From positions 5,270,001 through 5,334,000 of the forward strand of contig CM007990.1 of NCBI GenBank assembly GCA_002189035.1: DNA of 64,000 bases. The letters run 5' to 3'. Below are positions 4,354 through 61,436 of this stretch, one piece after another. The position numbers were made by a program, and so were the translations under genes. The first letter of the stretch is position 1. Every line of letters begins with the position of its first letter. Source of the stretch: Utricularia gibba. Lineage: Eukaryota > Streptophyta > Magnoliopsida > Lamiales > Lentibulariaceae. Below the pieces are notes generated by a model that was not told the DNA's origin, searched no databases, and worked only from the letters and a program-made list of their open reading frames with translations.

Positions 4354-4781
4354 TCAGTGAATGCTGCAACGAGAATTTCGTGAGAAAAGAAAAGAAATAA
4401 AAAGGACATTGAGCTATTTAAGGACAGGTTTCTTTCTTCACCTGGCGCAGTCGATGTTGGGGCTGATGACGTACGGAAGCGTGAGGCCGCACTTCCCTGG
4501 GAGATCAGCCGCATTCCGGAGAATATTCGGGTTGGCGGCGGCGTAGCTGGAGTAGCTTTTCAGACAGTTGCAGATGGTTTGTTTGTCGCCCGCCGTGCCG
4601 GCTCGGCCGTAAATCCCCTGGACGTTCTGGCAGCACTCCCCGCCGGGGACCCGCCGTAGACGATGAAGGTGAAGCATGGGTTCAGGGCGTTGGTGACTTC
4701 TTGGCAACTAACTGCAGCGTCAGCCACCACGAACACAGACAATGCAGCTGCGGCGAGAAAAACCCACGAATATCTCGCCAT
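4354..4781 (-). CDS. Type 1 lipid-transfer protein with a one-base frame break
   Basis: Second minus-strand LTP paralogue, about 116 residues if the frame is mended. Exons are 4781-4442 and 4363-4354. The start codon at 4781 opens a signal peptide (MARYSWVFLAA...) followed by the first two cysteines. The frame is lost at the CCCC run at 4645-4648, where one base is missing. The remaining six cysteines, starting with ECCQ and running through CNC, KCG and DCA, continue in the adjacent frame. The intron donor is at 4441 and a TTGCAG acceptor gives a 10-nt last exon ending SIH-stop, matching its paralogues. All else is conserved, so an assembly error is at least as likely as a pseudogene. Confidence 0.75.
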
Positions 4782-6071
4782 GGAAATGCTCGCAGTGCAG
4801 CGCTTACAGTAGATGCGGAGTCCGCATGTGCCGGCTTTATCTAGAAGCCGGCGAATGGTGGAATCCACTAGTGTGAGTAACTGTAAAAGCGGGAAGATGG
4901 TAGATGGAGCGCCATTGAATGCAGAGTTAGTGCCGCAGCGGCCCCCATCGCGTGCCCCCTTCATCGTTTTGTGCTCCATAAGACACGCTTTAACGCCATC
5001 GCCATGTGCTCACCAGACACTAACCACCATTACAAAATAATTAAATATACCATAAGATGCATTATTGCAAAAATACTCAAATTATTCAAGAATTTAGGCA
5101 CACGTTTATGCACGTGAATAAAAATTAATTAACATGCATAATTACTCTAATTACGTTTTTAAAACTTTTATTCTACCTAATTATTATTACATTAACCAAA
5201 TATTTTAAAAACCTATTTTAATAATTAAGCTTTAAATTATTTTAAAATATGTCTTTTATTTCTGTAAAAACATAGTTCTAGAGAGGCATACATTTTGGTG
5301 GGGGAAAAGACGCATTTGCCACTAGATTAGTGCCCTTCTATTGCGCAATCTCACGTGATGGACTATAGCACGTTTGTTTCAGTTGTATGATTAGGGCAGT
5401 GTAAAATAGGTCATGAGATTGGTTGGTGTAATAAATATTATTTAAAATATATTTTTATAATTTGTATAATTTTTAAATTGAGAAAATCACAGCTAAGTGG
5501 ATACCGATTATAAATTTGACCATCATTTTTTCACTATATTAGAAATTTGACCATGTATACTGTATATTTTTTCATTATATGAGATAGAATGCAAGAGTGA
5601 TCACTCTTCTAAATTATCCGTCAATAGATAGATTTTTTTTCATTTGGGAGTACAAAATTTGATGTCAATAGGTGTCTATGGTTATCCAATTATCGATAAG
5701 GTATTGAATTATTTTCATTTTTGGGTATATTTAATTATTGAAATATCTGATTAGGGGACAGAAATGCACGATTGTTCCTACCAGAAAACCTCCATAATAT
5801 AGAAGCTGGAAGACACAACAATGGAGGTCATTATTGCATCCTATGAAATTATTGCACGAATTTTTGCTCTCAAATTCGATATTTAATTGAATTTTTTGTT
5901 TATGTGATAATTTTTGTTTTTTTTTTCAGATAAATAAGGCACACTTCTCACATAGACAACTGAAAAAAAAATACAGACAAACAGAAATGCTACATGCACA
6001 TTATTCATTGCATTATGAAACTCGATAAAATTTCATGTGCTGTCTGCGACGGATCCAACATCCCACCTTCT
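4782..6071. other. Intergenic between second and third LTP genes
   Basis: The first 240 bases are the promoter side of the second LTP gene and contain its copy of the shared upstream module. From about 5030 to 6000 the sequence is A+T-rich without open frames I can support. Confidence 0.5.
4879..4945 (-). promoter_or_regulatory. LTP upstream module, copy 1
   Basis: Divergent copy of a block also found upstream of the third and fourth LTP genes: an AACTGTAAAA element followed by CATTGAATGC and a GGCCCC core in the same order. It lies roughly 100-165 bases before the second LTP start codon. Confidence 0.45.
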
Positions 6072-6508
6072 TCAGTTAATCCTGCAGAATCCGATCCACG
6101 AGTAAGATATCCGTATTGGAGGAGGGAGCATGAAGGGTACTGGTGTGTTTATTACCTGGAGCAATCGATGCTGGGGCTGATCTTGTACGGGATGGAGACG
6201 CCGCAGGATCCAGGGAGATTGACGGCGCGGCTGATTCTCTCGGGGTTCACGTAGTTTTGATACCGAACGTAGAAATCCTTCAGGCAAGAGCACACGGTTC
6301 TCCGGTCGTACGTGGTGGTCACCTGGCCGTAGAGGCCGGTGATGCCGGGGCAGCAGTTCGGACCGAGGGGTGGCCCATTCAGAACGTAGCTGATACATGG
6401 GATCAGGCTGTTTTGCACGTCGTCGCAGGTGACTGCGGCGGCCCTCGGCACCACCGCCATGACGGCGGCGAGTAGGGCGAGGAAAACACACAAAGCACCC
6501 TTGGGCAT
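6072..6508 (-). CDS. Non-specific lipid-transfer protein, type 1
   Basis: Third minus-strand LTP paralogue, 120 residues, secreted to the cell wall. Exons are 6508-6156 and 6081-6072. A signal peptide of about 25 residues (ending AAA before VTC) precedes the full eight-cysteine motif: TC, PC, NCC, CSC, SCG and DCS. The donor GTAATA at 6155 and acceptor CTGCAG give a 10-nt terminal exon, so the protein ends DCSRIN. Frame is intact and all cysteines are present, so this copy should be functional. A TATA box lies 79 bases upstream of the start, and a conserved LTP module lies just beyond it. It is closest in sequence to the fourth copy (shared YDRRTVCSCLK-type stretch). Confidence 0.9.
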
Positions 6509-6586
6509 TCCTTAATGCTAAGACAAGGACAAGGGAAGAAGATAGGTGCTTGCTTGTGTTGGAGTGAAGGGTGATTTGATAGTAGA

Positions 6587-6594
6587 TTATATAA
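6587..6594 (-). promoter_or_regulatory. TATA box of the third LTP gene
   Basis: TATATAAT on the minus strand, about 80 bases upstream of the start codon at 6508. Confidence 0.6.
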
Positions 6595-6611
6595 GGGGAA
6601 ATTGAGGTTAG

Positions 6612-6711
6612 TGGGGTAATTTTACAGTTGGGAGTTGGGTGCATCTCCTTGAATGCCTTTATTGATTGGCCCCTAACATCTTGTTCCAATTGGGGCCTCC
6701 AATTAAATTTG
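6612..6711 (-). promoter_or_regulatory. LTP upstream module, copy 2
   Basis: Contains, on the plus strand, TAATTTTACAGTTGG, then GTTGGGTGC, CTTGAATGC, ATTGATTGGCCCC and a CCTCCAATT end. The same elements occur in the same order upstream of the fourth LTP gene, with strong sequence identity. It is probably a co-duplicated promoter block. Confidence 0.6.
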
Positions 6712-6905
6712 GTTAGAATCCACATTTCACCTCTCTTCCAAAACAATCTTGAAATTAATTATTCGATATATCGAACGATTACATATAAAAATCAAGTATA
6801 TAATAAACACAATTCATATTATAAAAAATTAAAACAGATAAATTGATGTAATTTTATAGTATAAATTCAATGCATCTAACTTTTTATTTATTTATTATTT
6901 TTTTA

Positions 6906-7016
6906 ACTAGATTTCAAATTAATATAAAATTCATCTTGGTTGTTCTTCCAACGCATCTATTTTTTTTATTTTTTTTAACTAGATCTCAAATTAATATAAA
7001 ATTCATCTTGGTTGCT
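6906..7016. repeat. Tandem duplication, 72-bp period
   Basis: The stretch starting ACTAGATTTCAAATTAATAT at 6906 recurs with one or two changes at 6978, both copies ending in TTCATCTTGGTTG and both preceded by a T-rich run. It is a local duplication in A+T-rich spacer. Confidence 0.75.
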
Positions 7017-7484
7017 CAAATACAAATTAATTGATACCATATTGAAATTACGAATATTATTAGTAGAACAATCACACGAAAAACTATATATAAACAAAAA
7101 ACACAAATCACATTACTATGATTAATCATCATCAACATTAATAATTTATATTTTTTTTACATAATTAGCCATTTCATTTCCAAATACAACTAGAATGTCA
7201 TGGAGATTATCGTAATTTCAATGTTGTATTGTAGTTGGGACTTGGGTTCACTTAGTTGCCTCCAAAGACGAGTAAAATGTGTTAAAAAAAGGAATTAACT
7301 TTAGGGAAAACAGAGGCACACATGGGGGTATATAGATAATACTGAACACGATACAAAGGGCTACGTCCAAAAGCCGTGGGGTCGAGAAAAGACCCATCAT
7401 TATTCTAACGCTGCTACGACAAAGTTACTAGCATTACTGTAACCCCCATCGTCCATGCGCGCGCTCCTTCGGACCGTTTCTTCT

Positions 7485-7925
7485 TCAGACAACCCTGCAA
7501 GGACGGCACATGGGTGAGTACTCTCTTTACCTGCATATAAGAATCAGGGCTTGTTAACGTTCCGAACCTGGTGCAGTCGATGCTCGGGGAGATGGTGTAG
7601 GGGATCCTGACGCCGCATGAGCCCGGGAGATTGGTGATACGGTTCATGATGATGGGGGTGACGTACTGAGCGTACTGGGAGTAATAGCCTTTCAGGCAGC
7701 TGCAGACGGTTCTCCGGTCGACCGTACCCGTCGCCTGGCGGTACAGGCCCTGTATTCCGCCGCAGCAGTTGGTCATCAGAGGAGCCTGGCCAATAATGTA
7801 GGTCAAGCATGGGTCAGGGTGCTTCTCACGCTGTCACATGAGACAGCCGCCCCGGCCTTGGGGACGCCCACGACTGCGGCCATGGCCACGATGAGGAGAA
7901 CCCACATGGAGGTGAACTTCGCCAT
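7485..7925 (-). CDS. Type 1 lipid-transfer protein with a one-base frame break
   Basis: Fourth minus-strand LTP paralogue, about 122 residues if mended. Exons are 7925-7568 and 7494-7485. The start at 7925 opens a signal peptide (MAKFTSMWVLLIVAMAA...) and the first cysteine (AVSCDSV). The second-cysteine codon is missed because the CCC run at 7811-7813 appears one base short, putting a stop a few codons on. From the next codon the other frame continues cleanly through NCC, CSC, SCG and DCT. Donor GTTCGG at 7567 and acceptor TTGCAG give a 10-nt last exon ending RVV-stop. As with the second copy, everything else is conserved. Confidence 0.75.
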
Positions 7926-7970
7926 TGCTGATAGCAGTCGATGGGTTGGTTAGCAGTGGAGATGGGTAAG

Positions 7971-7977
7971 TTATATA
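7971..7977 (-). promoter_or_regulatory. TATA box of the fourth LTP gene
   Basis: TATATAA on the minus strand, 46 bases upstream of the start codon at 7925. Confidence 0.55.
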
Positions 7978-8219
7978 GGAGAAAAAAATGGAGGATTTCC
8001 TTCACTTACCGCAATCAAAACACAGCACTCATTGTACCACACAAAATTCTGCAGCATCATTAAATTCGCGTCTATCACTTGTACCCTTTCACCTTTTCTC
8101 ACTTTTACCACTCTGATAAACCGGAGACCCCTTGAAAACTAGGGTTTACAGCAGTAAAAAACAAAGGGTTTACTGTGTTGACTGCGTCATCCCCTTTTTA
8201 CCCTTCAAGTGTGTCCAAT

Positions 8220-8320
8220 TCGGTGTAATTTTACAGTTGGTGGTTGGTGCCGTACCATTGAATGCAGTTATTAATGGCCCCTGTCAGAATCAACGTGGGG
8301 ATGGGCCCTCCAATTGCAAC
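8220..8320 (-). promoter_or_regulatory. LTP upstream module, copy 3
   Basis: Closely matches the block at 6612-6711: TAATTTTACAGTTGG, GGTTGGTGC, CATTGAATGC, TATTAATGGCCCC and CCTCCAATT in the same order. It lies about 300 bases upstream of the fourth LTP start codon, farther than in copy 2. Confidence 0.6.
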
Positions 8321-10701
8321 TCTGTTCCTGCCATAAACCACGTTATAATCCGCATCCTCCCCATTAATTCCCACGCATACTTAGTTTGTGTAGGATAGGG
8401 AATAATTCTATTTTAAATAAAAATAATAATTTTACAAAAAATAATAAATCTTGTATGAAATTTTCATCATCCCTATTGGGGTTTTTTTTTCATATTTTTT
8501 AATAATATTTAAATTTCATCCCATTAAAATAAAAATAAAATGTCAAGACGATGGTCTCCTTTTTAAGCATTTTATATATAAAAAAACATGCTAATTAAAT
8601 ATGCGTGTCTTAAATTACCATACAAATCCAACATTTACGGATTCGATTCGAAATCAATAGGAGGCGGTGGCAGTTGGAAGTTGGACAGATTCATACAACA
8701 CTTGAAGACACTACTTATATTCTTGTCCGGATTCCGGTTGATAGAATATACATAATAAATTATAATACATTTTTTAGTTTGTAAATTTAATATTGGAAAT
8801 TTTAATTTATCTAATTATATTAATTTATTTTATATTAATTTTAATTAATTCAGAATAAGAAAATCCTTTTTATTCCAATTTTTGAACTAAACACACTGCA
8901 GTATTTTTAAAAAGTGGTAAAATCAAATAAAAGCCAAAATTAAATGATATTTTTTTCCTCAAAAAATATTGTATATTTTTAGTAAATGTTTTTATTCTCC
9001 ATTGCGTGGATGGGCGGTGATGGCGACGTCCATATTGCCACATTTATGTGCCTGCAGAGGGTAACCTCATGTTTTACGGTCTTCTTTATTTTTTTTACCG
9101 TGATGGGGGGTGAATTTCAAAGCATCATGTGGTCGCATGTGGTCATTATTTACCACGCTGTAAAAAAGACAAATAACGGTCCAATGAGGCACGGACACGC
9201 ATCACAACCGATCATTGATTATTCGAAAATCATTAATTACAGAATTATTTTGCTAAATATAATATTTAATTACGTGTCACAACCGACCATGCAAAATTCT
9301 CAATTTCAATAGACTGTTAAATGTACGACATTTGATGAATCTGCTATTAAAAAAAATTTAAATTTGAAATAGAAAATCTAATAGAGGGAGATGACAATGT
9401 GGGATTTAAATATTCAATATAAGATAAGGAAATTTTATCCTAATTTAATTTTATTTTATTTCAGTATTGTCGATTTTCTGGAACTTTTTTCCCGATTTTT
9501 TCAATTAAATCGATATGTAAATATTTCACTATTAAAACCTTTTTCGATATATAAATTCATGGCCTCCCGCAAGTTGGGCCGCGGGCTTGAACGCAACACG
9601 GTACCAGGCCGGGCCGTGAACTGGACCCCACATTTGGTACGGGGGCCACCCACTAAGGCGGCCGGTACCCACTCCATTAACTAGAAGATGGAGGAGCCGC
9701 CGGTCTGGGCTGGGTTCAGCACAGGTCTAACGCCGCCGGTTCGGTCGAATATTTATATTGTAAAATAATATTAGAATTATTGAAGTTGAAGGGGTTCTTC
9801 CCCTACTGCCAAGGAAGGTACACGGCCATTCTTAATCTATTCAATTCTGACTTTGTGGATGAAATACCGTTTAGCATGCTAGGCGGACCCTCTCTAACCA
9901 CATTTTGCTTATTTTTAATCTATTATTTTACGAGATTCGAGATTCTAAATTGATCCTAATGTTGCTTTGGTAGTTCTTTAAACTTCTAAACCATAGTTGT
10001 GTGAATGATACATGCCGATCGCCAACCTAAATCAAGAAAACTGCATGGTCAATGGTGTTATGTTGTCGAATTCTAGTTTTGGATTTAAGTATTGTATAAT
10101 TGGGTGCTCGTATTATATTCTATTTGGTACAACTTTTCTAAAACTTTGTGTTAGATCTATATCACGTTCAAATCTCGTGATTTTTGGAGTTCGATGATGG
10201 TAAAAACATGAGAGAAATAGGAATGAATATTATGGATAGTATTTACAATAATGTATCATCATAGCGGTATTAAAATCAAAATCAATTAATTTTGATGACA
10301 TGAAAAATTAAATATGTAATTTTATAAATTTGAAGATAAAATATTTATAAAAATATAAATTAAAATACATAATGTAATTTTAAAAGTTGATAATTAAATT
10401 CATAATAACTTGGAATGATGAATCCAAACTCCACCCTTTTTGTAATAAAACGGATTAACTGACACAATTCTTGAATTCCCACAAATGCGGAGTAAGAGAA
10501 TACCAAATAATCTGTTACAAAAAAGTAATAATTGTATTATTTCCGTAGACATGCAATATATTCTAACAAAGGACACTGGGCAATATTTGAATGGCTGGGT
10601 TGTGTTCGTAGGAAGCAGCCGCGCATACAGTTTTTTAGTACTCGTAGAGGTGAATAATAAAATGATGGTAAGACTTTGCCATTTTTTATGCTGTTAATTT
10701 C

Positions 10702-10709
10702 TATAAAAG
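10702..10709 (+). promoter_or_regulatory. TATA box of the first peroxidase gene
   Basis: TATAAAAG, 79 bases before the start codon at 10788. Confidence 0.65.
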
Positions 10710-10778
10710 GTGTAGGCAGACTGTGACTACGTATCAGGCACAAGCACTCTCTGAGTAGAGAGAACAGCTTCGGTGTAG

Positions 10779-11911
<1,133 letters not shown>

Positions 11912-12643
11912 CCTGCCTTTTGTTTCATTTGACGTTGGGGTTGTATTGTACCCATTTTACGGCGCTGATAATAAACACGTTTTTCTTAAAAAAAAAAATT
12001 ACACTTTTTCTCCTTTTCATATTTTTTATTATATATCTTCCCCAAAGCACGTGTACTGTCACGTGATACAACGGTAATAAGGTTTTATATTCAAAATAAA
12101 CCACATAATTTGGAGTTGAATCCATTTTACATTAAATTGAATTTAAATTATCGAAAAGTATTATGAAAATAAAATTAATATTTTAAATTTTTTAATTTTA
12201 TGCAAAAATTATTGAATTAAACCCATAAAACATGATCTCAGAATGAATTGAATCTAATCCCTAGTTTAATATTATATTTTAAAATACAAAAAAAATTCTT
12301 AAAAACTTTGGAATTAAAAAATGAATACTATCGGGCTTTATCAAAATATTAAAATAATAAGAAGAAATAAAGAGGAAACGTATAAAAATGAAAAACCGGT
12401 TATCGAAAAAGGTGTGAAGAACACATTATTAGAGGACAAAGTTATAGAGTTAAAATAAAATAAATAATACATTTGAAAATGAAATAATGAAGTATATTAA
12501 AAATTATAGATAATTAATAATTGATTGAACATAATCTTTTATAATATGATAATCGTTTTTTGTAAACTTAGATTGATCCATTAACACATAGATCACGTTT
12601 CATAAGGAGACCTTTCTCGAGCCTGTCTTCTCCGCATGCACTA
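11912..12643. other. Intergenic, A+T-rich
   Basis: 3' flank of the first peroxidase gene, with AATAAA at 11970-11975, then very A+T-rich DNA without supported features. Confidence 0.5.
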
Positions 12644-13049
12644 ATGGACCGCGCCACCGAACCTGAACGTGATGCCCTTTTCATGAAGCAGCTGTCCGAT
12701 AGGCACAACTATAAGGATGATGTAGAACTGAATACCTAATACTTTCCATCTGGTTCTTCTTCATCCACTGGAACCAGGGCTCGAAGTCAACTTGGGATCC
12801 TGAAAATCTGGCCCGTTCCCAAGCATCGGACTCTGACTCTGATGAAAATACTGCATTTTTCTTCTGGGAAACAGAAAAGAACAAAGCTGGAGATCTCTGT
12901 CTGGAAAAAAAATGCAACAGGACGAAATTGCGGTAAGATTAATGGGCATAGACGTTTCTCCATCCTATTTTTCTCCCTGGAGCACCAAACTTGAGACAAG
13001 GACCAGTTGTCCTTCCCTGCAAATGGATGGAGAATGCCTTCAGTATTAA
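12644..13049 (+). pseudogene. Possible decayed gene fragment with a VARLMGL-like motif
   Basis: Higher-complexity sequence in A+T-rich spacer. A plus-strand frame from 12644 encodes 31 residues (MDRATEPERDALFMKQLSDR...) and stops at 12739. A second frame carries an acidic stretch (SDSDSDENTAFFFWETEK) over roughly 12778-12936. A third frame, 12912-13049, encodes QQDEIAVRLMGIDVSPS. That last motif resembles the VARLMGL motif of plant LONGIFOLIA/TRM-type proteins. The three frames in succession would fit a frameshifted relic. The evidence is motif resemblance only and the open stretches could be chance. Confidence 0.25.
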
Positions 13050-18335
<5,286 letters not shown>

Positions 18336-22939: not shown

Positions 22940-23169
22940 TCCCATGCAACGAAGAAGATGCAGTAAAACCAGCAGTGTGTTACCGTCTGGTCGCCCAACT
23001 AAGTGCAATGCTTTATCTTCCTGTGTATCCATGGATGATCCTCTGTATTAAGCAATGATTAAGTCTGCTAAACGCGATTATTAACTGGGACGAAAACCAA
23101 ATCACATGCTGCGTCTGCCGAACTCTCTTATACATATAAGCCGTCGTTTCTCGTTCACCCACGCCGGAG

Positions 23170-25473: not shown

Positions 25474-28262
25474 CTAAGCATGAGATTCAGGTGCCTCACC
25501 GTGATTATCCAGTGGCATGTACTGGGCCATTATAGCTCGAATCTCAGAATCCATGTACTTCTGCAAATTGTTGAATCGAATTACAATCGCAGCACTTCCG
25601 GTAAATCCGCAGGGTGGATGGAGAAACAAATGTAGCAGGTCTTACCCGGATGCGATACTTGTAAAAGGCGTATCCTGCTACTCCAACTACAGCTAGAGCG
25701 ATCATTAGCACCCATAAAATGGTCCAACTGTTTCCGGACCTGCTGCTACCTTCGCCTGTAAGTTTTTTCTCATAACACAGTTGAGTGCAGGGTTCAATGT
25801 GAAGTTACTTCAGAAACTCGTGTACTTACCAATGCATGTATCGTGTTCATGTATGTATAGTAAGTTGTTCCTGCAAGTGCATTCGTAGCTTCCCCATGTG
25901 TTCTTGCAGTTGCATTCTGGGCACTGGCAAGCTAGCTTTTCTTTGCATTCGTCCACATCTGGATCCAAGTTACCGAAGGTGGTGAGCTGCAGATTCGCTA
26001 TTGGACAGAAACGGTATGTCTCTTGTTTTCATACCTTCACATGTGTCGACTCCATTACCCTTGAATCCCACTGGACACTCACAGCCAGTATCAGCATTCT
26101 GAAAGTAGTAACAGAAACTCATTGTGATCAGTAAATGAAGAGAACAGAATGAGGCTGCGGGAGTGAGCTTTAATAGATTCCCCCTATGGGGAATCTGCCT
26201 GTGATGAGGATGCTTGGAACAGCAATCCTCAGAAACTTACAAAGCATGCTGAGTAGGTCCTTCCACCCTTCGTCCCCTTCCAGCAGCCTCCATTATTTAG
26301 CTCACATCTTAGTGAACCTGACACTGTGATGAGGCGCTTCTTTTAGGATTTGAGATTGACCCTGAATGATCTAGTTGGCAAGAGCACAGAGGAGCTTCTT
26401 CCCATGTGTCAAAGAAACCATTACCAGAACACTTTGTGTAGCCATCACCAGAGAACACTATCCCCCAACTGTAGGGCATTCACAAACTCTCCCACGGAAG
26501 GTGTCCTGCAAGCAAACACCACCTAGCTTTAGATACCACTTAGTAGCCAATGATCGAAAATGGGTCATGGATGGCCCGATGTCAAGGATTCTGAAAACCA
26601 TGGAAAAAACAGAGTACCCTGCAAGCAGTGATGTTACTGAACTTATCCTTCCAGCATCCACCATTGTTCTCCAAGCATTCGTTTGTTTCCATGTCTACCC
26701 ACAGAATGTATCAGAATGAACTTCGAGTGTGCTTAGTAGAACAAATGCAGAAACCAGTACCGGTTGTCAAGCAGATATCAGGCTCTGTTGTCTCCTCAAA
26801 ACCTGCACAAATGGCCCTGAGAACTGCCCCTTTTTCCAGCTTCCCTGTTGGTTTTTGGAAGTGACGAGTTCCGGTCACGTCCGGGAGGTTGATAATCATC
26901 GGAAACAGGAAACAGTTACCTCTATACTGCTTGTTGTTTATGATGAGAGTTGGCAGTATGGTAACATCTCCTCGTGAGTTCTTCCCTACCTGAGGAAACT
27001 AAGTCACACCCTGGTTGGATTCACAACCGAAAGATCTCAAAAGCATCCAACCTGTGCTTCCTGTTCTTGTTTCAAGATTGGGTTCTCCACATCCTCCTCC
27101 GTGTCGCCGATGCATTCGTCGATCTTCTTCACATCAACGCCTAGAGATTCACAGACCAGAAAACCAGTGATTAGCAAGCAAGAGTATGCAACAGTAACAG
27201 AAGCATCCACCTAGAGACTGGATCACTTGATCTGCACACTCTTTTGTATACTTCTTCTGGTTCATGGGACACCGTATTGAGAAATCATTTACATAGTCCC
27301 ACCATTGCCAAGGCTTTCCTCTCTCGCTTGCTACCTTAAAAAAGCAAGCTTGGCGTAGATTCTGCAGAACAACATCCTTTCCATCATACCCTTCACTGAA
27401 ATCCTGCTCAGGATCAGGTGCGCAGTATCTTCCATTGTTAATGCATTGTGATTTGCACTGTTTGCTCGACAGGAAGGCCTCTGGGCAGTACCATGTGATG
27501 TAGTGTGGTGTAAACTGAGTGTACCCTTTCTTCTCCAGTATCTGCGCCACCCCTCTGAAGTTCCGAACGAAATCTAACTGGCTGTCGCACTTGGGGCCGC
27601 ACTCATCGTTCGTGTTCGTCCAGAACTCATACTCAACCCTCTCATCAGGATGTGGAAGGGACTCACTCCAGTCCAGATTCACACTCACCATGTGCCCTTT
27701 AGACAGCTGACTCTTGATCTTGTCCGCAAGCTGCTTGGTAATAAGAGCTGAAGGGATGTTGATGTCCTTGAGATAATCAGCTTTTGCATCAGTTTCCCCT
27801 GGAGTGTCCATGGTGAGGAGAGGCTCATCAACATCATCTCCGACAAGAAGTGCTGCCGCTCCAACATTCTGGGCGTGCCATGCTTTCAATGTGAAGTAGC
27901 AATCTGCAAGATGTGTTAGAGATCAGCAGCAGCAGTCTGGAAAGGAAGAGCTGGAGAAAGCTACCTCCTCTGTCGAGAAGAAGAACCACTGGGATCCCTC
28001 CAGGCTTGTTGTTCAAGGGGATGTCTCCGTCTTGGAACTTCCTGCATCCCTTCTGGTTCTCAGGTTTTGGAGGATACAACACAGAGCCGACCATGGAGCC
28101 TCCATACTTGGGGACCCCAAAGTTCCCGATCGCAGACTCGTACACACCACTTATGGATTCAGGGGATGTCACTTTTAAGCTGTTTTTCTCCACTACAAAT
28201 CTCCCGAAGCAGCCCCCGCAGGTGACAAACACCAACAACACATTGAACCGGGTGCGGTTCAT
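25474..28262 (-). CDS. Vacuolar sorting receptor (VSR/BP-80), one-base frame break
   Basis: Type I membrane cargo receptor that carries soluble proteins to the vacuole, about 619 residues. Twelve exons: 28262-27965, 27903-27211, 27140-27052, 26989-26920, 26844-26761, 26694-26618, 26505-26425, 26317-26241, 26098-26035, 25958-25830, 25755-25646 and 25560-25474. Order: signal peptide, protease-associated domain ([16 protein letters not shown]... to DRGDCYF), central cysteine-rich region, EGF-like repeats ([23 protein letters not shown]), one membrane span near residues 565-590, and a cytosolic tail with the AP-binding YMPL motif, ending PESHA. Exon 7 is 81 nt where phases demand 82. A C run at 26462-26466 (G run in the gene) is one base short and creates a premature stop just after ECPTVG. 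Confidence 0.9.
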
Positions 28263-34256: not shown

Positions 34257-36901
34257 ATGAAGAAGAGAAACAAGCCTTTGCTGGTTTGGGATTTTGGTCT
34301 TCTGTTGCTCTTGTACGTTGCTGGTCTTGTGTCTGCAGCTAATTATGTTCCAACAGACAAGATTTTCTTGAATTGTGGAGGCCCTGCTGATTCTAGTGAT
34401 GCTGATGGGCAGACTTGGACTTCAGATATTGGCTCCAAGTTTTTATTATCTAGCACTAGATCATTCCCTGCTTCAGCATCTGTGCAGCTGCCTGATGTTC
34501 CTCAGGTCCCTTATATGACTGCCAGGGTTTTCGAGTCCGAATTCACGTATTCATTCCCAGTTTCTTCTGGCCACAAGTTTGTTCGTTTGTATTTCTACCC
34601 TGCATCTTACAATGGTCGAAATGCTTCTGATGCATTCTTCTCCGTGACTTGTGGGGATACACCCTTTTGAGCAACTTCAGCGCTGCTCTTGTCTCAGCAT
34701 CTTTGAACTATGACTACATTGTGAAGGAATACTCTGTTAATGCCCCCTTGGAGGTGTTGAATATCACATTTATGCCTTCGGCTAATGCATCAAACTCGTA
34801 TGCATATGTTAATGGAATTGAGGTGGTATCCCATCCTGATATATATAGTTCAGATGGAAGAATATCTGTGGTTGGACAAGCTTCAGGTTTTACTATTGAC
34901 AACAGTACAGCTCTTGAGAATGTGTATCGTCTGAATGTTGGTGGAAATGTGATTTCACCCTCAGGGGATACAGGCTTGTTTAGATCATGGAGCGATGACT
35001 CGAATTATATTTTTAGTGCAGCAAATGGAGTTACAGAATCTCTTGATCAGGATATGAAGATTACTTTTCCTACAGGAACCCCAAGCTATATTGCACCTAT
35101 GGATATGTATGCTACTCTGAGATCAATGGGGCCAAATGCATCTGTCAATGTGAACTACAATCTAACTTGGGTGTTTGATGTCGACTCGGGCTTCTCCTAC
35201 CTCATTAGGCTTCATTTCTGTGAGATCACTGATGTCATCACCAAGGTAAACCAGAGGGTTTTTAGCATTTTTTTGAACAACCAAAATGCAGAGCGAGAAG
35301 CAGATGTGATTGCATGGGCAGGGGGTCCTGGGACACCCTTTCACAAGGATTACATTGTTGTTTTTCCAAATGGACCTCCAAGGCAGCAGCTTTGGCTTGA
35401 TTTACATCCCAACACCATTACCTTGCCTCAATATTATGATGCTGTATTGAATGGGTTGGAAATTTTTAAGATCAATACTAGCAATGGAAACCTTGCTGGT
35501 GCTAATCCGGAACCACTTCCTCAGCCGCCAGTGGATACCTCTAACCACTTTCGAGGATCACATAATGCTCACAGATCTGCCATTTTGGGAGGTGCTGTGG
35601 GAGGAATTGCAGCATTCCTTGTTATTGGCTTGGCTGTATCTCTTGTGTCGAGGAGGACATGGAAAAAGGATTCTGTATCCAGTGATGGTTGGCTTCCCCT
35701 GTCTCTGTATGGAAACTCGCATTCGTCAGGATCAGCCAAGACAACTACTACAGGCAGCATTGCTTCATCCCTTCCTTCAAACCTTTGCCGACACTTCTCA
35801 ATTGCTGAGATTAAAGCTGCCACCAATGACTTTGATGAGGCTCTTCTCCTTGGAGTTGGTGGTTTTGGGAAAGTATACCGTGGAGATGTTGATAGTGGCA
35901 CAAAAGTTGCGATAAAGCGAGGGAATCCCCTGTCCGAGCAGGGTGTTCATGAATTCCAAACCGAGATTGAGATGCTCTCTAAACTCCGACACCGGCACCT
36001 GGTTTCCCTGATAGGGTACTGTGAAGAGAACTGTGAAATGATCCTCGTCTACGATTACATGGCTTATGGGACTCTTCGTGAGCATCTGTACAAGACCCAA
36101 AAGCCACCATTGCCTTGGAGGCAGAGGCTTGAGATTTGCATTGGTGCAGCTCGGGGTTTACACTACCTGCACACTGGTGCAAAGCATACTATAATCCACA
36201 GAGATGTGAAGACGACAAACATTCTCTTGGATGAAAAGTGGGTGGCCAAGGTTTCGGATTTCGGCCTGTCGAAAACCGGCCCTTCTCTGGATCACACCCA
36301 TGTAAGCACAGTTGTGAAAGGAAGTTTTGGCTATCTTGATCCTGAGTACTTCAGAAGACAGCATCTGACCGAAAAATCAGATGTATACTCTTTCGGGGTT
36401 GTTCTTTTCGAGGTGTTGTGTGCTCGCCCTGCTTTAAACCCAACCCTGCCAAAGGAACAAGTCAGCTTGGCTGAATGGGCTGTGCAGTGCCACAAGAAGG
36501 GCACGTTGGACCAGATGATTGATCCTTATCTCAAGGGAAAGATAGCATCAGAGTGCTTCAAGAAGTATACTGAGACGGCAGTGAAATGCGTCTCAGATTT
36601 TGGAACGGATCGACCTGCCATGGGAGATGTGTTATGGAACCTTGAGTTTGCTCTGCAGCTCCAGGAAAGTGCAGAGGAAAGTGGGCTGATTCCTAAAGCT
36701 GGGGAGGTCGAAGAATTTGAAGATCAGTGCAAAGGGAAGAAGGATGCAGACTCATCACCGGGTTATGGTGGTACCACTACCGAGTCAAAAAGCAGCGGAA
36801 CAACACTCAGCACCAGCGGCCAAAGTCTCATCAGTGAGAGCTCCGATGGGCCAACTCCAAGCGCTGTGTTTTCAGAGATTATGAATCCAAAGGGCAGGTA
36901 A
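34257..36901 (+). CDS. FER: FERONIA-like malectin receptor kinase (CrRLK1L), one-base frame break
   Basis: Plasma-membrane receptor kinase, about 881 residues, of the family that senses RALF peptides and wall integrity. Single coding exon. Order: signal peptide (to about residue 27), two malectin-like domains ([18 protein letters not shown] at the start), a membrane span near [20 protein letters not shown], and a kinase domain with [28 protein letters not shown] and DFGLSK. The C-terminus [15 protein letters not shown] matches FERONIA itself. The frame breaks at the GGGG run at 34653-34656. The upstream frame ends CGDTPF-stop while the family motif YTLLSNFSA continues in the next frame, as expected if one G is missing. 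All catalytic residues are intact, so an assembly error is the simplest reading. Confidence 0.9.
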
Positions 36902-52225: not shown

Positions 52226-52625
52226 CTAACAGTCTCATTGATGGTTCAGTAACGGCCAGGAGGACATTGTTTTGCAAAGAAACCAGTTTTAGTCAAATCG
52301 ATCGAACAGGATAAGGGTGTGGGTCAGTGAGTGAGTGAGCGGTGGTCTTCCCTCTAACATGTTTACGGTGTTCATTTCGTGATGGTACAGCAGTCATCAG
52401 CTCCCCGGTTGGTAGCGATTGGGTTGCAAGGGAGTTAACTGGTTTCAGCCGGATTGAAGGTGTGATTTGGTGGTGGTGTGTTATTATTCCTAGAAAGAAA
52501 ATTCATTTATCTAACGCATTTCTTATGTTTGTTAAAAGATAGTACTGCGTTGTATTGGTCATGCTTGATGCAGCTTGAAGTGTATGGATTTCACAAAAAT
52601 GCCGAGGAGTAACAAGCCCAGTTAG
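52226..52625. other. Intergenic, convergent 3' flanks
   Basis: 400 bases between the RING gene stop and the FolD stop on the opposite strand. No feature is seen. Confidence 0.5.
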
Positions 52626-53993
52626 TTACATACACAAAACGGAAGCACGCTTTGCAGACTCAAGCGTGTTGTGAAGCAGCATAGCAACCGTCATGGGTCC
52701 AACTCCACCGGGCACAGGCGTTATAGCAGAGGCTACACTTCTCGCTTCCTCGAAGCAGACGTCTCCGATCAGACGGTAGCCATGCTCGCTTGCCGGATCC
52801 TGAAAAGCAAGACTCAGATAGTTTACTACAACAGTAAAAGCTGTGGTTCCTCTACTGGCAAAAGAACACGGGCGGTACCTCAATGGGATTGGTTCCCACA
52901 TCAACCACAACTGCACCAGGCTTCAGCCAACTCCCACGCACAAGATTCGGCACTCCGGCGGCCACAATCAGGATGTCCGCTTCACGAGCAACATCCTCGG
53001 GGTTACTTGTGAACGGATGAAGGATAGTCACAGTAGCATGGTGCCTCTGAAAAAGATGGGATGATGGCTGATTGATAGCAGACTTGGCTGAAGAAAAGAA
53101 AAAGAAAGGGATGTTACTTGCAGCAGTAAGGACATAGGTAAGCCGACGATGTTGCTCCGGCCGATCACCACAGCATTCTTTCCGGTGACATCAATACCAG
53201 ACTGAAGAAGCAGCTCCATGCACCCCTTTGGTGTACATGGAATGAAAAGTGGCTCTGCTCCTTGCATCGCCAGATTTCCGATGTTCATAGGATGGAAGCC
53301 ATCAACATCCTTCTCCAGTCTCACAACGTTGAGAACTTCCGCTACGTCCAAATGCTGTTGAGGTTAGACGTCGTGCATTTTAAGACCAAGTCCTACAAAA
53401 CCTGCTGCTTCTTTCGTCGTTCAAGAAGCAGAAAGATCACCTGAGGCAAGGGGAGCTGCACGATGATGCCGTGTATCGATCGATCCTCGTTGAATCTGTG
53501 TATCACGTCACGGATTTCGGATTCAGTGCACTTCTCTGAAAGGGCGGAGATCTCGAACTTGATTCCGGCTTCTCTGCATGCGATCTCCTTATTCCGGACA
53601 TACGTTTGCGAGTCTCTTCGTTCTCCCACTACCACAACAGCCAAACCAGGAACAAGACTAATGGATTCCTTCATCTGGCTCACCTCAAATGCTATCCTAG
53701 ACCTTATCGTCAGCGCCACCGCACTCCCGTCAAGGACTCTACCACGACTGCTGTTCTTCGCTGTCACAAGACAATCAAAACACCAGCAACCACCGGAAAA
53801 AATCGAAGCGAAACACGGAACACTTACACCAATCTTGAGTTGAGCGGTTATCAGAATCAGACAGCCAATCATCGGCAACATCGAGAGATAGAAGGGACGG
53901 CGACTTGATGATTTGGCTACTGAAAGCACGCGGCAGAATCGAACGACTCATGGGGCGGAGAAAACCGGCAACGCGCCTTATGCCGCCCCTCAT
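52626..53993 (-). CDS. FOLD: FolD: methylenetetrahydrofolate dehydrogenase/cyclohydrolase, organellar
   Basis: Bifunctional folate enzyme of 354 residues that interconverts 5,10-methylene-, methenyl- and 10-formyl-tetrahydrofolate with NADP. Exons are 53993-53828, 53760-53441, 53354-53118, 53046-52879 and 52799-52626. The first exon encodes an Arg/Ser-rich presequence ([20 protein letters not shown]), predicting mitochondrial or plastid import. The catalytic domain shows [20 protein letters not shown] (the Y and K of the YxxxK active site), [40 protein letters not shown] and [18 protein letters not shown] (Rossmann phosphate loop), and ends near [20 protein letters not shown]. All expected residues are present. 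Confidence 0.93.
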
Positions 53994-54398
53994 CCTTTCG
54001 CGCTTTCCCTTGCTTCTTCTTCTTCTTCCGAACGCCTGCTACGGGAAATCGTATAAGGGTTTTCGGTCCAAACAATCGACGAACTCGTGTTATTCCAGAT
54101 AGATCTCCAGTCAACAGAGTGCCGTACAAACTTCAAAGCTTGATTCCCTTAACTATAGCATTCGAAATTCCACGTCATAATTTGCATTTATTTATTATCC
54201 GCTCCTTTGTTCTCGAAATATCTATTTGAAAAATTACTTGTAAAAACGATTAATGATTTTTTTATTCATGTGAAATATTGTGCCACCTTTGAAATCGTTC
54301 AAAACTTAAGCAGCTGATTTCAGCGTCCTCGTTATTGTCGGGGTTCTCCAACTCACACTGAGAATCTCGAGTTCTCCTTGGAATCTTAATGGCGGGAG
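53994..54398. other. Intergenic between FolD and RidA
   Basis: About 405 bases holding the FolD promoter and leader and the RidA 3' flank. A T-rich tract lies near 54180-54300. Confidence 0.5.
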
Positions 54399-55545
54399 TT
54401 ACTGGGGAAGCACCGCCGTGCATTCGATTTCAATCCTGGCGTCCAGTGGCAGCGCAGCCACCTGAAAGGTGGAGCGAGCCGGTGCCGGTGCTGGGAAGTC
54501 TGCAAAACAAAACGCAGCACAGGGTTGGACCTCTCTTCCACAGTCAATCAGTGGGTGATGTGGTGGATGGTTCCAGGAAACTTACACTTGGCATATATCT
54601 CATTCACTTTCTTGAAGTCCTTGAGATCAGCCAACCTGCACAGGAACGAAAGCATGGATTGGTTGCAATTTCCATGGGTGTCACAGAGAATTGTGAAAGC
54701 CTAAAAAACACACATGATTGTTGTCTTGACAACTGAGGAATAGTTGGCACCGCCTGCTTCAAGGATCCTTCCCATGTTCTTGAGTACCTAGCGCCAGTCA
54801 CCAGAAGATGCGATGACGAAATCAAGCCACCACAAGAGCGTAGAAGGGATAAAAGGATGATACTAGCACTCAACCAATGGCAGACTAACAAGCACTACAA
54901 GCAACTAGAATAGGAGGACTTGCTTCATAATATGAGCAACATGAGCGTCTTGCTTCATAAGATTCATTCAAAATTACCCTTTAGCAGAGATTCCAAGAAG
55001 AAGAAGAAACCTAGCGAGTATATATACCTGTTCGGTTTGTTCCTCCACAGTTTCTGAGACGAATTTCCCTGTCTGCATATGGTGAATAGAATACATGTAG
55101 GTATTACTTATCTCGCCCCTGTTTACAATGATATAAAACAGCAGCATTCCAAGGATCACGAACCTCTGGGACGAGCCCAAGAACTCCGGAAACAAAGAGA
55201 AGATTGTTGGCTTTGATGGCTTGCGAATAAGGCCCCAGTGCCAACGGGGCTTTGTCCGTCTGAACAGCTTCCTTCACAACTAAATCCAATAGTAACAAAA
55301 TCAATCAAATCTCGAAGGGAAATAGCATCAAAATGAAGCACAACACATCAGTATATCTGACCCATGTTCGGGATTGTGGAAATGCCACAAGACGCAAACG
55401 CCGGAGATCGACCTGACCGGAGTAGGTTACTCCCAACGAGGGAGACACACCCTTTACCCACATAAAAAGCCCCCACACTCCGAATCTTTCCGGCGTCAAC
55501 TGCCGGCAGCCGCATGCTCGTCGCGGCGGCTACCCAACTTGCCAT
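54399..55545 (-). CDS. RIDA: RidA reactive-intermediate deaminase, chloroplast
   Basis: Predicted 189-residue enamine/imine deaminase that clears reactive 2-aminoacrylate-type intermediates and protects plastid branched-chain amino acid synthesis. Exons are 55545-55362, 55279-55164, 55072-55028, 54787-54714, 54635-54586 and 54499-54399, with consistent phases. The first exon is a plastid transit peptide (MASWVAAATSMRLPAVDAGK). The catalytic domain shows APLALGPYSQAIKANNLLFV, SGVLGLVPE, TGKFVSETVEEQTEQ, VLKNMGRILEAGGANYSSVV and, at the end, PARSTFQVAALPLDARIEIE with the substrate-binding Arg of the PARS motif and the Glu of IEIECTA. It ends AVLPQ. Confidence 0.93.
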
Positions 55546-55925
55546 CGACGATTTGTCGGAGAATCAACTTCCTTGCTCCTTATAAATTCGCAGCAGCACG
55601 TAGCGAACTCTTAGTGGGCTTCATCCAATTCACCACAGGCCCAAACTCCACTTTCCTTTTTCGGCAGTAGGGTTTTTTTCGAGTTCACTTACTAATAAAA
55701 TAATTATCAATAAATCGTGTACTCACCCCTTGTAGACTTAACATTCATAAAATAAATAATGATTAATAGACAATTAGTTCGAATTTGCATTCGAAATCTA
55801 TATTAATAATTATGTAAACAATTTTAAAATATTTGTAACTTTTTGAATTTTTTATTAATTGCAACATATTGACTTTTTGATAATTTAAATTCATCGTTAG
55901 TTAAATTAAACTACTAAAAACATAA
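55546..55925. promoter_or_regulatory. RidA promoter with two site II elements
   Basis: AGTGGGCT at 55613-55620 and AGGCCCAAA at 55637-55645 lie 70-100 bases upstream of the start codon, the position usual for site II elements. The rest is A+T-rich down to the IQD stop codon. Confidence 0.5.
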
Positions 55926-57184
55926 TTATAATTGATTAAAATCAAATCGTTGCTTAGCAAAGTCACAAGAGTAGCCAATTCTCCCGATGACGAGGTTCTT
56001 GAAGACGATGGCTTCCTGAGCTCGAGAGCCTCTCCTGGGCATCCTCTTCCACTCGGATCCCAGCTCCGGTCGCTGCCTGGGTGCACTGCGAGACCGCATC
56101 TTCGCCTTGAACGTCTCCGTGTTCGCCATGTAACTCGGACACACACTTCCGACGCTGCTACTGCACACGCTGTTCGCTGCCGGCGTCACGGGCTCGTCGG
56201 CGCCGTACCCGGACTCGAGTCCCAACGTATGGGGATCACGCCCGCCTCTGGGTTTGTCCCCCAAGTCGAGCCCTGTATCCACCTCCACGATCTTGGGGCT
56301 TCCGTCTGAAACCGGGGTTGCTTCAGGGGATGATGCTGAGAGCTCTGCTTTCACGTTGTACCTCTGTCATCAACGCACCGCCGATTTCAAAAAAAATGTG
56401 GCCGACCAAATAAATATATGCAACATGTCGACCTACCGGTGGAAGTCGTCGGGGTTGGGAGACGGCGATGATTTTCCGGGCCCGAATGGTGACTTGAGCT
56501 CTCATTAGAGCGTGCATGCTGTGAAAAGTTGCGGCGGCTTGTTTCCGTACGAGAAATCCTTTCACCAGCGCCTGGATTTTCACCAGCCCTCTGAGTGCCC
56601 GGAGAGCCTTTCGAGCCTGAAACACGAGAAACAAGCTCGTTAGATTCAAGCCCTCTGTGAATGGCGTGGGGTGTGTTTTTTTCTAAAGGGGAAGACGATC
56701 GGCTCTTGTCCAAACGAGCCAGCCGACGGAGAAAAATGCAGCTGAGTTGACATTTGAAGTGACAACACTTCCAATCTTAAACGAATGCAGGGAAGAGTTG
56801 ATGTACCAGGAATCCACGGAAGCAAGATTGGATCTTGACAGCCGCCCATTTCTCACGCCCCCGGTTCGTCAGCCTAACCACGGCAACTGCCGCCTGAGCA
56901 GCCGCAACCGCCGCATCCGCAGCCGCAGCCGTGGCGGCGGCGACAGCGATAGCGTGTTTGCTCTGCTCGTCATCAGCACCGCTGTAAAAGCATCTCAGCC
57001 ACTCGGCCTCCTCTGGCGTGATGTTCGGGTTGTTGAAAAGCCCTCCGGAGAACCCGAAGCTCCGGCTCCAAGATGCCTTTTCCCGGTCGACGGTGGGAAC
57101 GGTTATACTTGTAGCAGCATTCTTCTTCTTCGCCATCTTATCACGGCCGAAGAGTGCTCTGAGCCACCGCCCTGTTCTTCCCAT
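55926..57184 (-). CDS. IQ67-domain (IQD) calmodulin-binding protein
   Basis: Plant-specific scaffold protein of 331 residues that binds calmodulin and usually microtubules or nuclear bodies. Exons are 57184-56807, 56616-56437 and 56363-55926, phase 0 throughout. I take the ATG at 57184 ([20 protein letters not shown]), the classic IQD start, over an upstream in-frame ATG. The IQ67 region spans the first junction: [10 protein letters not shown] then [20 protein letters not shown], followed by [20 protein letters not shown]. It holds three IQ-type motifs with the conserved intron position. A long Ala/Val run ([20 protein letters not shown]) precedes it. The C-terminal exon has [20 protein letters not shown], a known family motif near the end. 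Confidence 0.92.
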
Positions 57185-58476
57185 TTTCTTCCTCCGGCGA
57201 AGCTTTCCGATGATGGGAGGATAAAGAGATGCGGTTGGTGATTGGAGAGAAGATGCCTGTTGTGGGTACAAAAAAAAGGTGTCGGGCGAGATTCTAGTGT
57301 GAATGGTCTTCTTCTATTCCCTGAAAAGCTGAGCAATGGATAAAAACCAGTGAGGAATGCACCGGAATTCGTAACAGTAAATTCACTATTCACATACGAC
57401 CAAGAGACAAGGAAGTAGAATTTCACGGGGAATGTTTATGCACCCAAACACCGCACCCCTCATCTTCCCCATCCAGTGACAAGTGAACATGTTTTCTGTC
57501 TATAAAAGAGATGACCTGCTGGTTATACAAACAGAATCATTTTCTCACAACACAAGTAAAACCCGTACATCACTAAAGAACACAAACAAAGTATACTCAG
57601 ATCAAGCATAATATGATCCATTGCACAAAGAAGAATAATATGCGTATTTGATGCAAAGAGCACCCGTGATGCTTCCGCTTCTTTTTTCTTCTGTCAGCAA
57701 GCAGGACAAAGAAAAAACAAAAGTAGTTCCATACGACAGAATTGGCACCACTCTATCACGTTGAAAAAACAACACATGATTCAAGAAAAAAACTGTAGGC
57801 CCCCATAGGCCAGGTTTCCTACCTTTTCTCTGCAAGAGTTGGATGTTGTTTGTGGCGAGGGACAAGTAGAGACAAATGACTTCATCTTTCAACGTATACG
57901 GACAAGAACTCATCCCTAGAACAGCAGCAGCAGGAGCCCATTTTGCTAGTCAAAGCCTATGAGAACTTTTTATAGCAAACAAAATTTTGGTGGATGTGTG
58001 TGGGAATGGAGCGTGATGGTGATGAATCCCTACTTGTGGAAGCCATAGTTCTGTGTGAGCGGTTGGCATAAGAAAAACCTTTGCAAATATGAGACTTTCT
58101 CATCAGAAATATTATAACCTTCAAATGTGGGTAGGAACGGTAGAGGACAGTCATAGCAACCGGAGGACACTTCGAGCATTACGGTTAGTTCAAGGATACC
58201 ACAGAAACACTTCTTGAACCGCCAGGGGAGAACTTTGGCAATTGCCATTGAGTCTTGGTTCCGGTGGTGCTCTAATCGTAGCCAGCCATTCCCAGTATCA
58301 GACCATCTCAATGAAGCAGGAATGAACACATCTAAATATCACCCCTGGTTCAGTTTATTGAATAACTAGGATATTAAGATTGAATATTTCAATGATTTTC
58401 AAGTCATCATGGTACATCACTAAAAGATTCCTCGCAAGTGACTGCAAGAGAAATCGAAGTTTGAAACTTTACCAAC
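57185..58476. other. Intergenic between IQD and dehydrogenase genes
   Basis: Leader and promoter of the IQD gene (to about 57450), then a stretch with no recognised gene. A 99-codon minus-strand frame at 58030-58329 matches no family. The last 100 bases are the 3' flank of the dehydrogenase gene. Confidence 0.45.
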
Positions 58477-59496
58477 TCAGAACTTGTCTTTCTGGTGTAA
58501 AGAGACATTGTTGAGATTCTCCAGAGCTAAAATGAGAGCTTGAGTTCCCAAATCGCCATGACCATGAGCTTTAAGAGATAGATACAGCTGCTGCGCCAAA
58601 GCCAAACCAGGAAGAGCCAATCCCATATTCTGGCATTCCCTCAAGCAAATCCCCAAATCCTTGACAAAATGATTCACATAGAAACCCGCTTCAAAATCCC
58701 TACTCAATATCCTGTTTCCATATAAATCCAACGATTTGGACCCGGCAGCGCCGCCGGAAATGGCGTCTAGGAAATGATTCAGATCAAGGCCAGCCTTGTG
58801 AGCATAGATAAGGCCTTCACATAACCCCACCATCGTCGAAGCAATTGTCACCTGGTTCGCTAATTTGCAAAATTGACCCTTTCCAGGACCACCCATATAG
58901 AAAACTCTTCCTAAATGGCTCAGCAATGGGCTAACCCTAGCCACCACGGATTCATCGCCACCGGCGAAGATCGACAGCGCCGCGAGACGAGCACCTCGGT
59001 CTCCCCCAGAGACCGGAGCGTCAATTGACGAACACTTAACAAGTGATGCGGCGGAATGTATTTCCACCGCAAGGGAGGGATCAGAAGTAGTCATATCGAC
59101 AATGACACCGCCGCTTCGGAGACCCGCGATTGCGCCAGAATCAGCGTCCAGGATGACCTGGCGTACGTCGGAAGGATACCCGACAATCGAGAAAACGATG
59201 TCCGACTGAGAGGCTAAAGCTTTAGGAGAATCGGCCCACCGAGCGCCCATGGAAAGCAGAGACTCAGCCTTGGCCCGGGTGCGAGTGTAGACAGTGACAG
59301 CGTAACCGGCGGAGATGAGATGAGAGCACATGGACCGGCCCATAACCCCGGTCCCAATCCACCCGATCTTGGTGACCGAAGGACCAACCGGTTCATCAGA
59401 GGAAGCGGCGGCGGCAGCCATGGAGCGGCGGAGTAGGGCAGAGGGAATGAAGACAACGGAGCGACGGAGCGAGTGCAGGGATGACGACAGCCGCAT
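58477..59496 (-). CDS. 3-hydroxyisobutyrate dehydrogenase-like protein, mitochondrial
   Basis: Intronless, 339 residues, beta-hydroxyacid dehydrogenase family, NAD(P)-dependent. An Arg/Ser-rich N-terminus (MRLSSSLHSLRRSVVFIPSA) suggests mitochondrial targeting. The dinucleotide fold begins KIGWIGTGVMGRSMCSHLIS. The substrate-binding motif is DAPVSGGDRGA and the catalytic lysine lies in GPGKGQFCKLANQ. The all-helical C-terminal domain ends with LENLNNVSLHQKDKF. Length fits the plant 3-hydroxyisobutyrate dehydrogenase-like 1/2 group more than the valine-degradation enzyme itself. Glyoxylate or succinic-semialdehyde reductases are related alternatives, so the substrate remains uncertain. Confidence 0.88.
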   Translation of the reverse strand: MRLSSSLHSLRRSVVFIPSALLRRSMAAAAASSDEPVGPSVTKIGWIGTGVMGRSMCSHLISAGYAVTVYTRTRAKAESLLSMGARWADSPKALASQSDIVFSIVGYPSDVRQVILDADSGAIAGLRSGGVIVDMTTSDPSLAVEIHSAASLVKCSSIDAPVSGGDRGARLAALSIFAGGDESVVARVSPLLSHLGRVFYMGGPGKGQFCKLANQVTIASTMVGLCEGLIYAHKAGLDLNHFLDAISGGAAGSKSLDLYGNRILSRDFEAGFYVNHFVKDLGICLRECQNMGLALPGLALAQQLYLSLKAHGHGDLGTQALILALENLNNVSLHQKDKF

Positions 59497-60303
59497 TTTC
59501 CTTTTTTATTTTTGTAAATACACATAAATGAAACAAACATACGGCTGGAAATAATTGAAATTAGATACCCCATGTGCCCCTAGTCCCAATTATAATAAAC
59601 TATGCAACAATTAACGGGACATGACATCATGAGGTGCATCACTAGGCACAACCATCCATCAAACCACATTCCAATTTTGTATAATCCATACAAGTTTTCA
59701 TAACCAAAATCAAATCACGAACCATTATTCGATAATTGGTTTCGTCATTTTGATCCGATTCATGAATATCCAATCATCTGATGAAGATTAGATTTCGAAA
59801 TATGACCTTATGTTAAACTTTAAAAGACTGTTCTCCTGATTGGTGTTGTAATTCGTTGATTAATTTGTATAACCATTGAGGAACTTTTTTTTGTATTTTA
59901 GATACTTTCGTGATAATATTGGTTTTCTCAATATTCGTAGTTATATTAATGATTAAAAAATAGTCCCCTGGTGTATAAGATACATAAAAATATACTTTCT
60001 GTAAAAATAATTTTTATGTTATTTATAAAATATATATGCAAAAATTCAATTTAAATATATTATTTAATAGGAATATTTCTAATAATATGCAGAAAAAGGG
60101 AGGAATAGAATAATTAAGTGATTCAATTATTGAGTTTCAGAAAGGGATAACAAACCGTTGTCCATAATAAATTGATATTAAAAGTGGATTAATTAATTGA
60201 TGAAATATGGATTATGAAATAAATTGCAAAACCTATAGCGTTGAAAATGAATTGCGTGTGATTTTTTCTACCTACGGATTGTTGGATGGGGATCATACAT
60301 TGA
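59497..60303. other. Intergenic, A+T-rich
   Basis: Upstream of the dehydrogenase gene and 3' flank of the ATL gene. No repeat or gene is supported. Confidence 0.5.
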
Positions 60304-61436
60304 CTACGCGCCGGTTAGGTTCCTCCGCCGTGGAGCTTCGTGTTGACGACTCGGCCGTCGGGGGATTTTAATTTGGGGCCAGAGAGTTCTTCCGCTGCCG
60401 CCACCCGTGTATGTTCGCCGTCCAGTTGTATCGAGAAATCTTGGGTAGAGGGTGATATCTGAAAGCGACCTCTTATCTGTTGTATCGATGGAACCCGGAC
60501 GGTGAAGCGGCGGCGCGTGATTGATCTCCGAGAGCTTTTGCTCTAGAACTCTCTTCCTCTCTATTTCTTCCTTGATATCGGTTATTGATTTACCGTAACC
60601 GCTGTCTACTGGGGCGGTCGCCGGTATCCGGGCTCTGGAAACGTCGGTTATCATTTCGGAACTGAGTAGGATAAGGTCCGGGGAGCTCATACTACTCCAC
60701 CGGGGTTAATCGACGGCTCGGCCGCGATGATTTCGTGATTGAATTTATGTAGATTTTCTCCCTCTCCTCCGACGCCGGGATCGCCGGCGAGACAGAGCGG
60801 CGCCGCTTCCTTCAGATCCCCAACCCTTAGCCTCGAAGACCAATCTCGATTCTCCTCCCGCCGGACGTACAAATCCGAATCGCAGGGTTGGAATCGGAAG
60901 CTTCTCGAAGACTGCGAAGCAAGAAGATCCTCCGCCGTAACTCGCCGGCGACAGAGCGGGCAGGTGGAGTGTTTCTCCAGCCAACTATCAATACACTCGA
61001 TGTGAAACGCATGTTTACACTTGGGAAGAAGCCGAAGAATCTCAACATCTTCATATTTCGCAAGACAAACAGAGCACTCGAGCCCTTCCTTGGCACCTTT
61101 CAGGGACTCGAATCGGAAAAAAGGCAGCGATTCGATCACGTTTTTATCGACGCCGGACGACCGCCGCCACGATCGGATGAAACCGCCGTCGTGGAATTGG
61201 AGCGCGCGGCGGCGTACGCGTCTCGGCCGGTGGCATAATTTGGCGTAAAGAAGAAGCATAAAAGTGATGGAGAACATGATGGACAACATGGCGATGACGA
61301 AGGCAAGCGTCGGCTGGAATCCAGCCATGGGATCCGGCGACGGCACAGAAGTAGCCGGCGAGCTGAGGGGATTCTGTGAACGCACATCGGCGGCGAGGAG
61401 GCAGAGCAGGAGGAGGAGGACAGGGACCATTCCCAT
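60304..61436 (-). CDS. ATL-type RING-H2 ubiquitin ligase (ATL42-like), frame broken near 60690
   Basis: Predicted membrane E3 ligase. As it stands the frame from 61436 ends at 60687 after 249 residues; with one base restored it would be about 377. Order: signal peptide (MGMVPVLLLLLCLLAADVRS), membrane span (LAFVIAMLSIMFSITFMLLL), the GLD-type region (GVDKNVIESLPFFRFESL), then a RING-H2 domain (ECSVCLAKYEDVEILRLLPK, CKHAFHIECIDSWL, TCPLCRRR). The first frame stops after INPGGVV. The adjacent frame from 60690 stays open for 128 codons and encodes SSPDLILLSSEMI and DKRSLSDITLYPRF, which resemble the C-terminal part of longer ATL proteins such as ATL42. Either one base is missing or the tail has been lost. 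The RING domain is unaffected. Confidence 0.82.

Follow-up and report, generated by a model that had tools for sequence, protein, structure and literature searches.

Single-base losses that break five genes of Utricularia gibba are very probably errors of its long-read assembly

Inspection of a 64,000-nt stretch of the Utricularia gibba genome (positions C2:5270001-5334000 of an assembly of 100.09 Mb in 516 contigs; hereafter, the window) showed five genes in which the reading frame is lost at one point, each time with a net change of -1. These breaks are very probably consensus errors of the long-read assembly, which would contain one base fewer than the genome at each of the five sites. The five genes themselves are most likely intact. 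The case for an artefact is strong for the five genes as a set, weaker for any one of them, and weakest for the two genes coding for lipid transfer proteins (LTPs), either of which could be a real pseudogene within the tandem array to which they belong.

RESULTS

Five genes of the window each lack one base

The initial annotation of the window had reported one net -1 break in each of two LTP genes and in the genes for a vacuolar sorting receptor (VSR), a FERONIA-like receptor kinase and an ATL-type RING ligase. Comparison with intact paralogs or solved homologs confirmed all five (Table 1). In tblastn searches with the intact tandem LTPs, the gene named LTP-A was found to switch from frame 3 to frame 2 at residue 51, while in the gene named LTP-B only 2 nt were left for the one residue lying between the two halves; the net change in each was -1. 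In the VSR gene a stop codon follows the sequence CPTVGG, and the family sequence carries on in the next frame at a run of five Gs (net -1). The VSR paralog present in contig C304 maintains one continuous frame across this site (CPTVHGVKFVGDGYT). Another frame change in the VSR gene, near 27.9 kb, is easily taken for a break but corresponds to a 61-nt GT-AG intron with a correct DRG^DCYFT junction.

Residues 1-128 of the FERONIA-like protein match the solved structure of FERONIA (6a5b), and the remainder matches it in another frame from the break interval on. No further break was found over the 2.6 kb of this gene. Its paralog in contig C451 (C451:1048665-1053560; 86% identical) is longer by exactly one base at this site, reading GGTGG against GGGG in the window; the run of Gs may therefore be a product of the loss, rather than having existed before it. 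Relative to its own paralog in C451, the ATL gene is one base short at positions 60702-60706 (ATTAACCCCGG; net -1). As the paralog sequences differ at these spots, the base lost from the FERONIA-like and ATL genes may or may not have been part of a run.

Table 1. Genes of the window with a frame break, and position of each break
Feature	Position in window	Strand	Description	Evidence
LTP-A	4439..4780	-	Lipid transfer protein gene, two frames	tblastn with intact tandem LTPs, sequence
LTP-A break interval	4636..4656	-	CGGCGGGTCCCCGGCGGGGAG	tblastn, sequence
LTP-B	7563..7926	-	Lipid transfer protein gene, two frames	tblastn with intact tandem LTPs, sequence
LTP-B break interval	7805..7824	-	ACCCTGACCC, also given as AAGCACCCTGACCCATGCTT	tblastn, sequence
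VSR	25900..28262	-	PA, VSR_TRX and EGF-type parts; 3' part mapped incompletely	
VSR break interval	26462..26466	-	G5 run	C304 paralog in a single frame
VSR intron	27904..27964	-	61-nt GT-AG intron, junction DRG^DCYFT	Sequence
FERONIA-like	34257..36898	+	CrRLK1L receptor kinase, single exon, two frames	PDB matches to FERONIA, paralogs
FERONIA-like break interval	34653..34656	+	TGTGGGGATAC	C451 paralog one base longer
ATL	60304..61436	-	ATL-type RING ligase, two frames	ORF pair, paralog alignment
ATL break interval	60688..60712	-	CGATTAACCCCGGTGGAGTAGTATG	One base shorter than C451 paralog

Over the coding sequence of the window, estimated by hand at roughly 26 kb, five single bases are thus missing. 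A search for a second copy of the five sites elsewhere in the assembly found none. The initial annotation also described the remaining splice sites and catalytic residues as intact. In the part of this claim that was checked, the peroxidases, a WNK-like kinase, FolD and a 6PGDH-like gene had their domains, and frame changes occurred only where an intron fits.

Two repeated sequences were also observed in the window. A 136-bp stretch at positions 59829-59965 is 91% identical to C515:225009-225144 and is present as well in contigs C4, C304, C2 and C1; it probably derives from an organelle or represents a small dispersed element. The other, at positions 10150-10450, is AT-rich, 200-300 bp long and repeated many times throughout the genome at 70-82% identity; it is probably a short mobile element.

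Loci assembled twice differ by missing bases

The strongest evidence for base loss came from two loci that were assembled twice. Contigs C377 and C321 align over 19.6 kb with at most seven mismatches, four of them at the edge of the alignment, and with 21 indel events, 19 of which involve a single base. C377 was the shorter contig in 17 of these events and C321 in four. Two of the losses in C377 fall in a stretch that C321 reads as an open frame of 262 aa. Contigs C316 and C412 showed one mismatch over 5.8 kb and 12 indel events, C316 being shorter every time. The loss of one C from a run divides a GRAS gene, intact in C412 as a frame of 615 aa, into frames of 229 and 412 aa in C316. Allelic copies would be expected to differ chiefly by substitutions.

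Fewer errors were found on the main contigs (at most four in the 19.6 kb of C321, and none in the 5.8 kb of C412). The error rate of the main contigs is overstated by that of the duplicates, which are small contigs of probably low depth. Four small contigs (C316, C377, C241 and C376) were seen to repeat parts of C412, C321, C304 and C413, respectively. The assembly is redundant and error-bearing, and C316 and C377, the two small contigs aligned in detail, carry many more missing bases.

Similar breaks are found in other gene families

If the breaks are an artefact of the assembly, they should be found in other genes too. Frame breaks were surveyed in the GRAS (PF03514, mostly intron-less; about 48 kb of matched coding length), HSP70 (PF00012; about 33 kb, duplicates included) and CrRLK1L (FERONIA protein as query) families, counting a junction only if neighbouring matched pieces shifted frame without room for an intron. 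The P450 family (PF00067) was left out because many of its genes scored only in part, which made breaks uncountable, and PPR_2 because its 150 short matches in long frames were a biased sample. Two GRAS frame changes, at C1:1229.5k and C4:1155.5k, were excluded, as true introns account for them. The final set comprised 23 junctions outside the window, 20 of them in GRAS and HSP70 genes, where the DNA was read at each, and three in CrRLK1L genes (one in C451 and two in C411).

A net change of -1 was observed at 21 of these 23 intron-less junctions, and an inserted base was required at none. As for the other two, the junction at C244:1855.1k (net -2) can be read as two successive -1 steps, with ALAARPG readable in the intermediate frame, while that at C414:3444.87k lies 1.5 kb from the contig end and looks like several losses. 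Counted by hand, the genes hit were 13 of about 39 for GRAS, five of about 18 for HSP70 and three of about 11 for CrRLK1L. This amounts to about three in ten of the genes sampled, with one base lost per 4-7 kb of coding sequence. The loss rate in the window matches that in the rest of the assembly, indicating that the window is not exceptional within the genome.

The initial annotation had tied the losses to G/C runs, in which it placed four of the five points. When the breaks were located solely by the boundaries of the alignments, 13 of the 23 had a G/C run of at least four within 12 nt. Positions drawn at random from the same loci would give 3.4, and a count of 13 was not attained in any of 20,000 resamplings. 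For runs of at least five, the corresponding figures were seven observed and 1.0 expected. A/T runs of at least four were not enriched near the breaks (one of 23, against 3.6 expected). The clustering at G/C runs is therefore upheld, but a restriction to such runs is too strict: about one fifth to one quarter of the losses lie outside runs, and A/T runs in non-coding DNA are shortened too. The C run in a PPTFRLTG-type GRAS motif was hit repeatedly (C375:1928k, C142:1759k and C1:4158k), as a context-dependent error would do. One HSP70 break was common to the two contigs of its locus, C304 and C241; this could be either an error made reproducibly or a genuine variant.

Selection on the FERONIA-like gene is not relaxed at the break

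Comparison of the FERONIA-like gene of the window with its C451 paralog gave dN/dS values of 0.12 upstream and 0.11 downstream of the break, with dS values of 0.35-0.42; comparison with a third copy, in contig C3, gave a dN/dS of 0.13-0.20. The shift of dN/dS towards 1 that relaxed selection would produce was not observed in this gene, the only one for which the ratio was computed. Purifying selection on both sides of the break indicates that translation of the downstream part has continued through essentially all of the time since the copies diverged, although these values would also be compatible with a real mutation of very recent date in one of the genes.

The C451 paralog has a -1 break of its own near the end of the kinase domain, while the C3 copy has a complete 876-aa frame. 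Two of the three closest FERONIA-like copies thus look broken in the assembly. That FERONIA is rarely lost, an argument based on gene identity put forward in the initial annotation, carries less weight than the other evidence, the third copy being intact. The proposal that the assembly loses bases systematically is itself supported by the net -1 breaks at G/C runs in other families, by the missing bases that distinguish the duplicate contigs, and by the intact selection on the FERONIA-like gene.

DISCUSSION

Base loss of this kind is an artefact already familiar from long-read assemblies, and not a biological feature. The U. gibba genome is listed as a PacBio assembly made with HGAP (PMC5793159). 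The probable cause of the losses is that short G/C runs, and some other positions, were under-called in a PacBio/HGAP-type consensus obtained without short-read polishing. It counts against an artefact that HGAP with Quiver, at the coverage listed, normally does better than one error per 5 kb.

In small genomes, homopolymer indels have been reported to generate frameshifts that inflate pseudogene counts (the Kastor paper, PMC12007338). The residual indels of such long-read-only assemblies resemble those of U. gibba in being of a single base, mostly deletions and located at homopolymers, in coming with few substitutions, and in leading to false pseudogene calls. The present case differs in that it concerns the nuclear genome of a plant sequenced with PacBio and was seen from sequence alone, in that the rate is high for the coverage reported, and in that coding losses occur in G/C runs, not in A/T runs.

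It is very improbable, though more credible than any other alternative considered, that all five are true pseudogenes of recent origin, such as would be expected where duplicates are being shed following a whole-genome duplication. As in frameshift pseudogenes formed after duplication, the frame is lost in copies of duplicated genes. Paralogs exist for the FERONIA-like (C451 and C3), VSR (C304) and ATL (C451) genes, so that one copy could be dispensable, and real decay is present in the assembly, namely in GRAS fragments with stops in C3 and in a psaA copy in C515. However, the five genes contain single-base losses only, all of the same sign, and no nonsense substitution, larger indel or second lesion was seen within them, unlike in genuine frameshift pseudogenes. 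In addition, the FERONIA-like gene maintains a dN/dS of about 0.11 across the break, not the relaxed selection of a pseudogene, and since its C451 paralog also has a -1 break, both recent copies would need to have died recently and in the same way. Finally, the same type of lesion affects about three in ten of the conserved genes sampled, HSP70s included.

The psaA copy in C515 provides a picture of what true decay looks like. The psaA and psaB genes were chosen as a high-coverage plastid control, but the contig turned out to contain a decayed psaA (C515:70080-72380), with several in-frame stops spread along the gene plus frame changes. The decayed psaA adjoins an intact psaB. The contig is 267.5 kb long, and is probably a mitochondrial contig with plastid-derived DNA.

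There is scarcely any likelihood that the sequence is correct and that the frame is restored when the genes are transcribed or translated, by programmed frameshifting or slippage at G/C runs. Breaks do cluster at these runs, and a C run at one homologous position is the break site in several GRAS genes. But bases are also missing away from runs and from non-coding DNA, and most GRAS paralogs keep their frame and need no shift. C377 and C321 disagree on run length, as do C316 and C412, so that the sequence itself is unreliable; programmed frameshifting would be expected to go with a certain and conserved run length. Just as little credence is given to the narrower idea that some of the shortened G/C runs are real, with the plant restoring the frame by slippage in RNA or protein synthesis; the candidate sites would be the GRAS C run and the break that C304 and C241 have in common in an HSP70 gene. 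Consensus error therefore remains the preferred explanation for the five breaks.

Base loss is not a universal explanation for the gene losses published for U. gibba, and each claim needs a check of its own. An N-terminal truncation of DCL3 has been published for this species with RACE support (PMC8333044). The assembly contains four Dicer-like loci, among them a DCL3-like gene (C213:2754300-2763300; C213:2761.9k) with a PAZ domain and two RNase III domains. A helicase or Dicer-dimer domain was absent from all plus-strand frames over about 6.8 kb upstream of the PAZ domain. Base loss was thus rejected as the origin of this truncation, given that the helicase and Dicer-dimer domains are missing upstream of PAZ, and the DCL3-like gene in C213 agrees with the truncation published.

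Apparently dead genes in this assembly cannot be trusted unless the reads are checked. Claims on gene loss, pseudogenes and gene counts made from it are affected, and genes split by a lost base would inflate the counts. The U. gibba assembly is a reference for the study of genome reduction and carnivory, in which gene loss is central.
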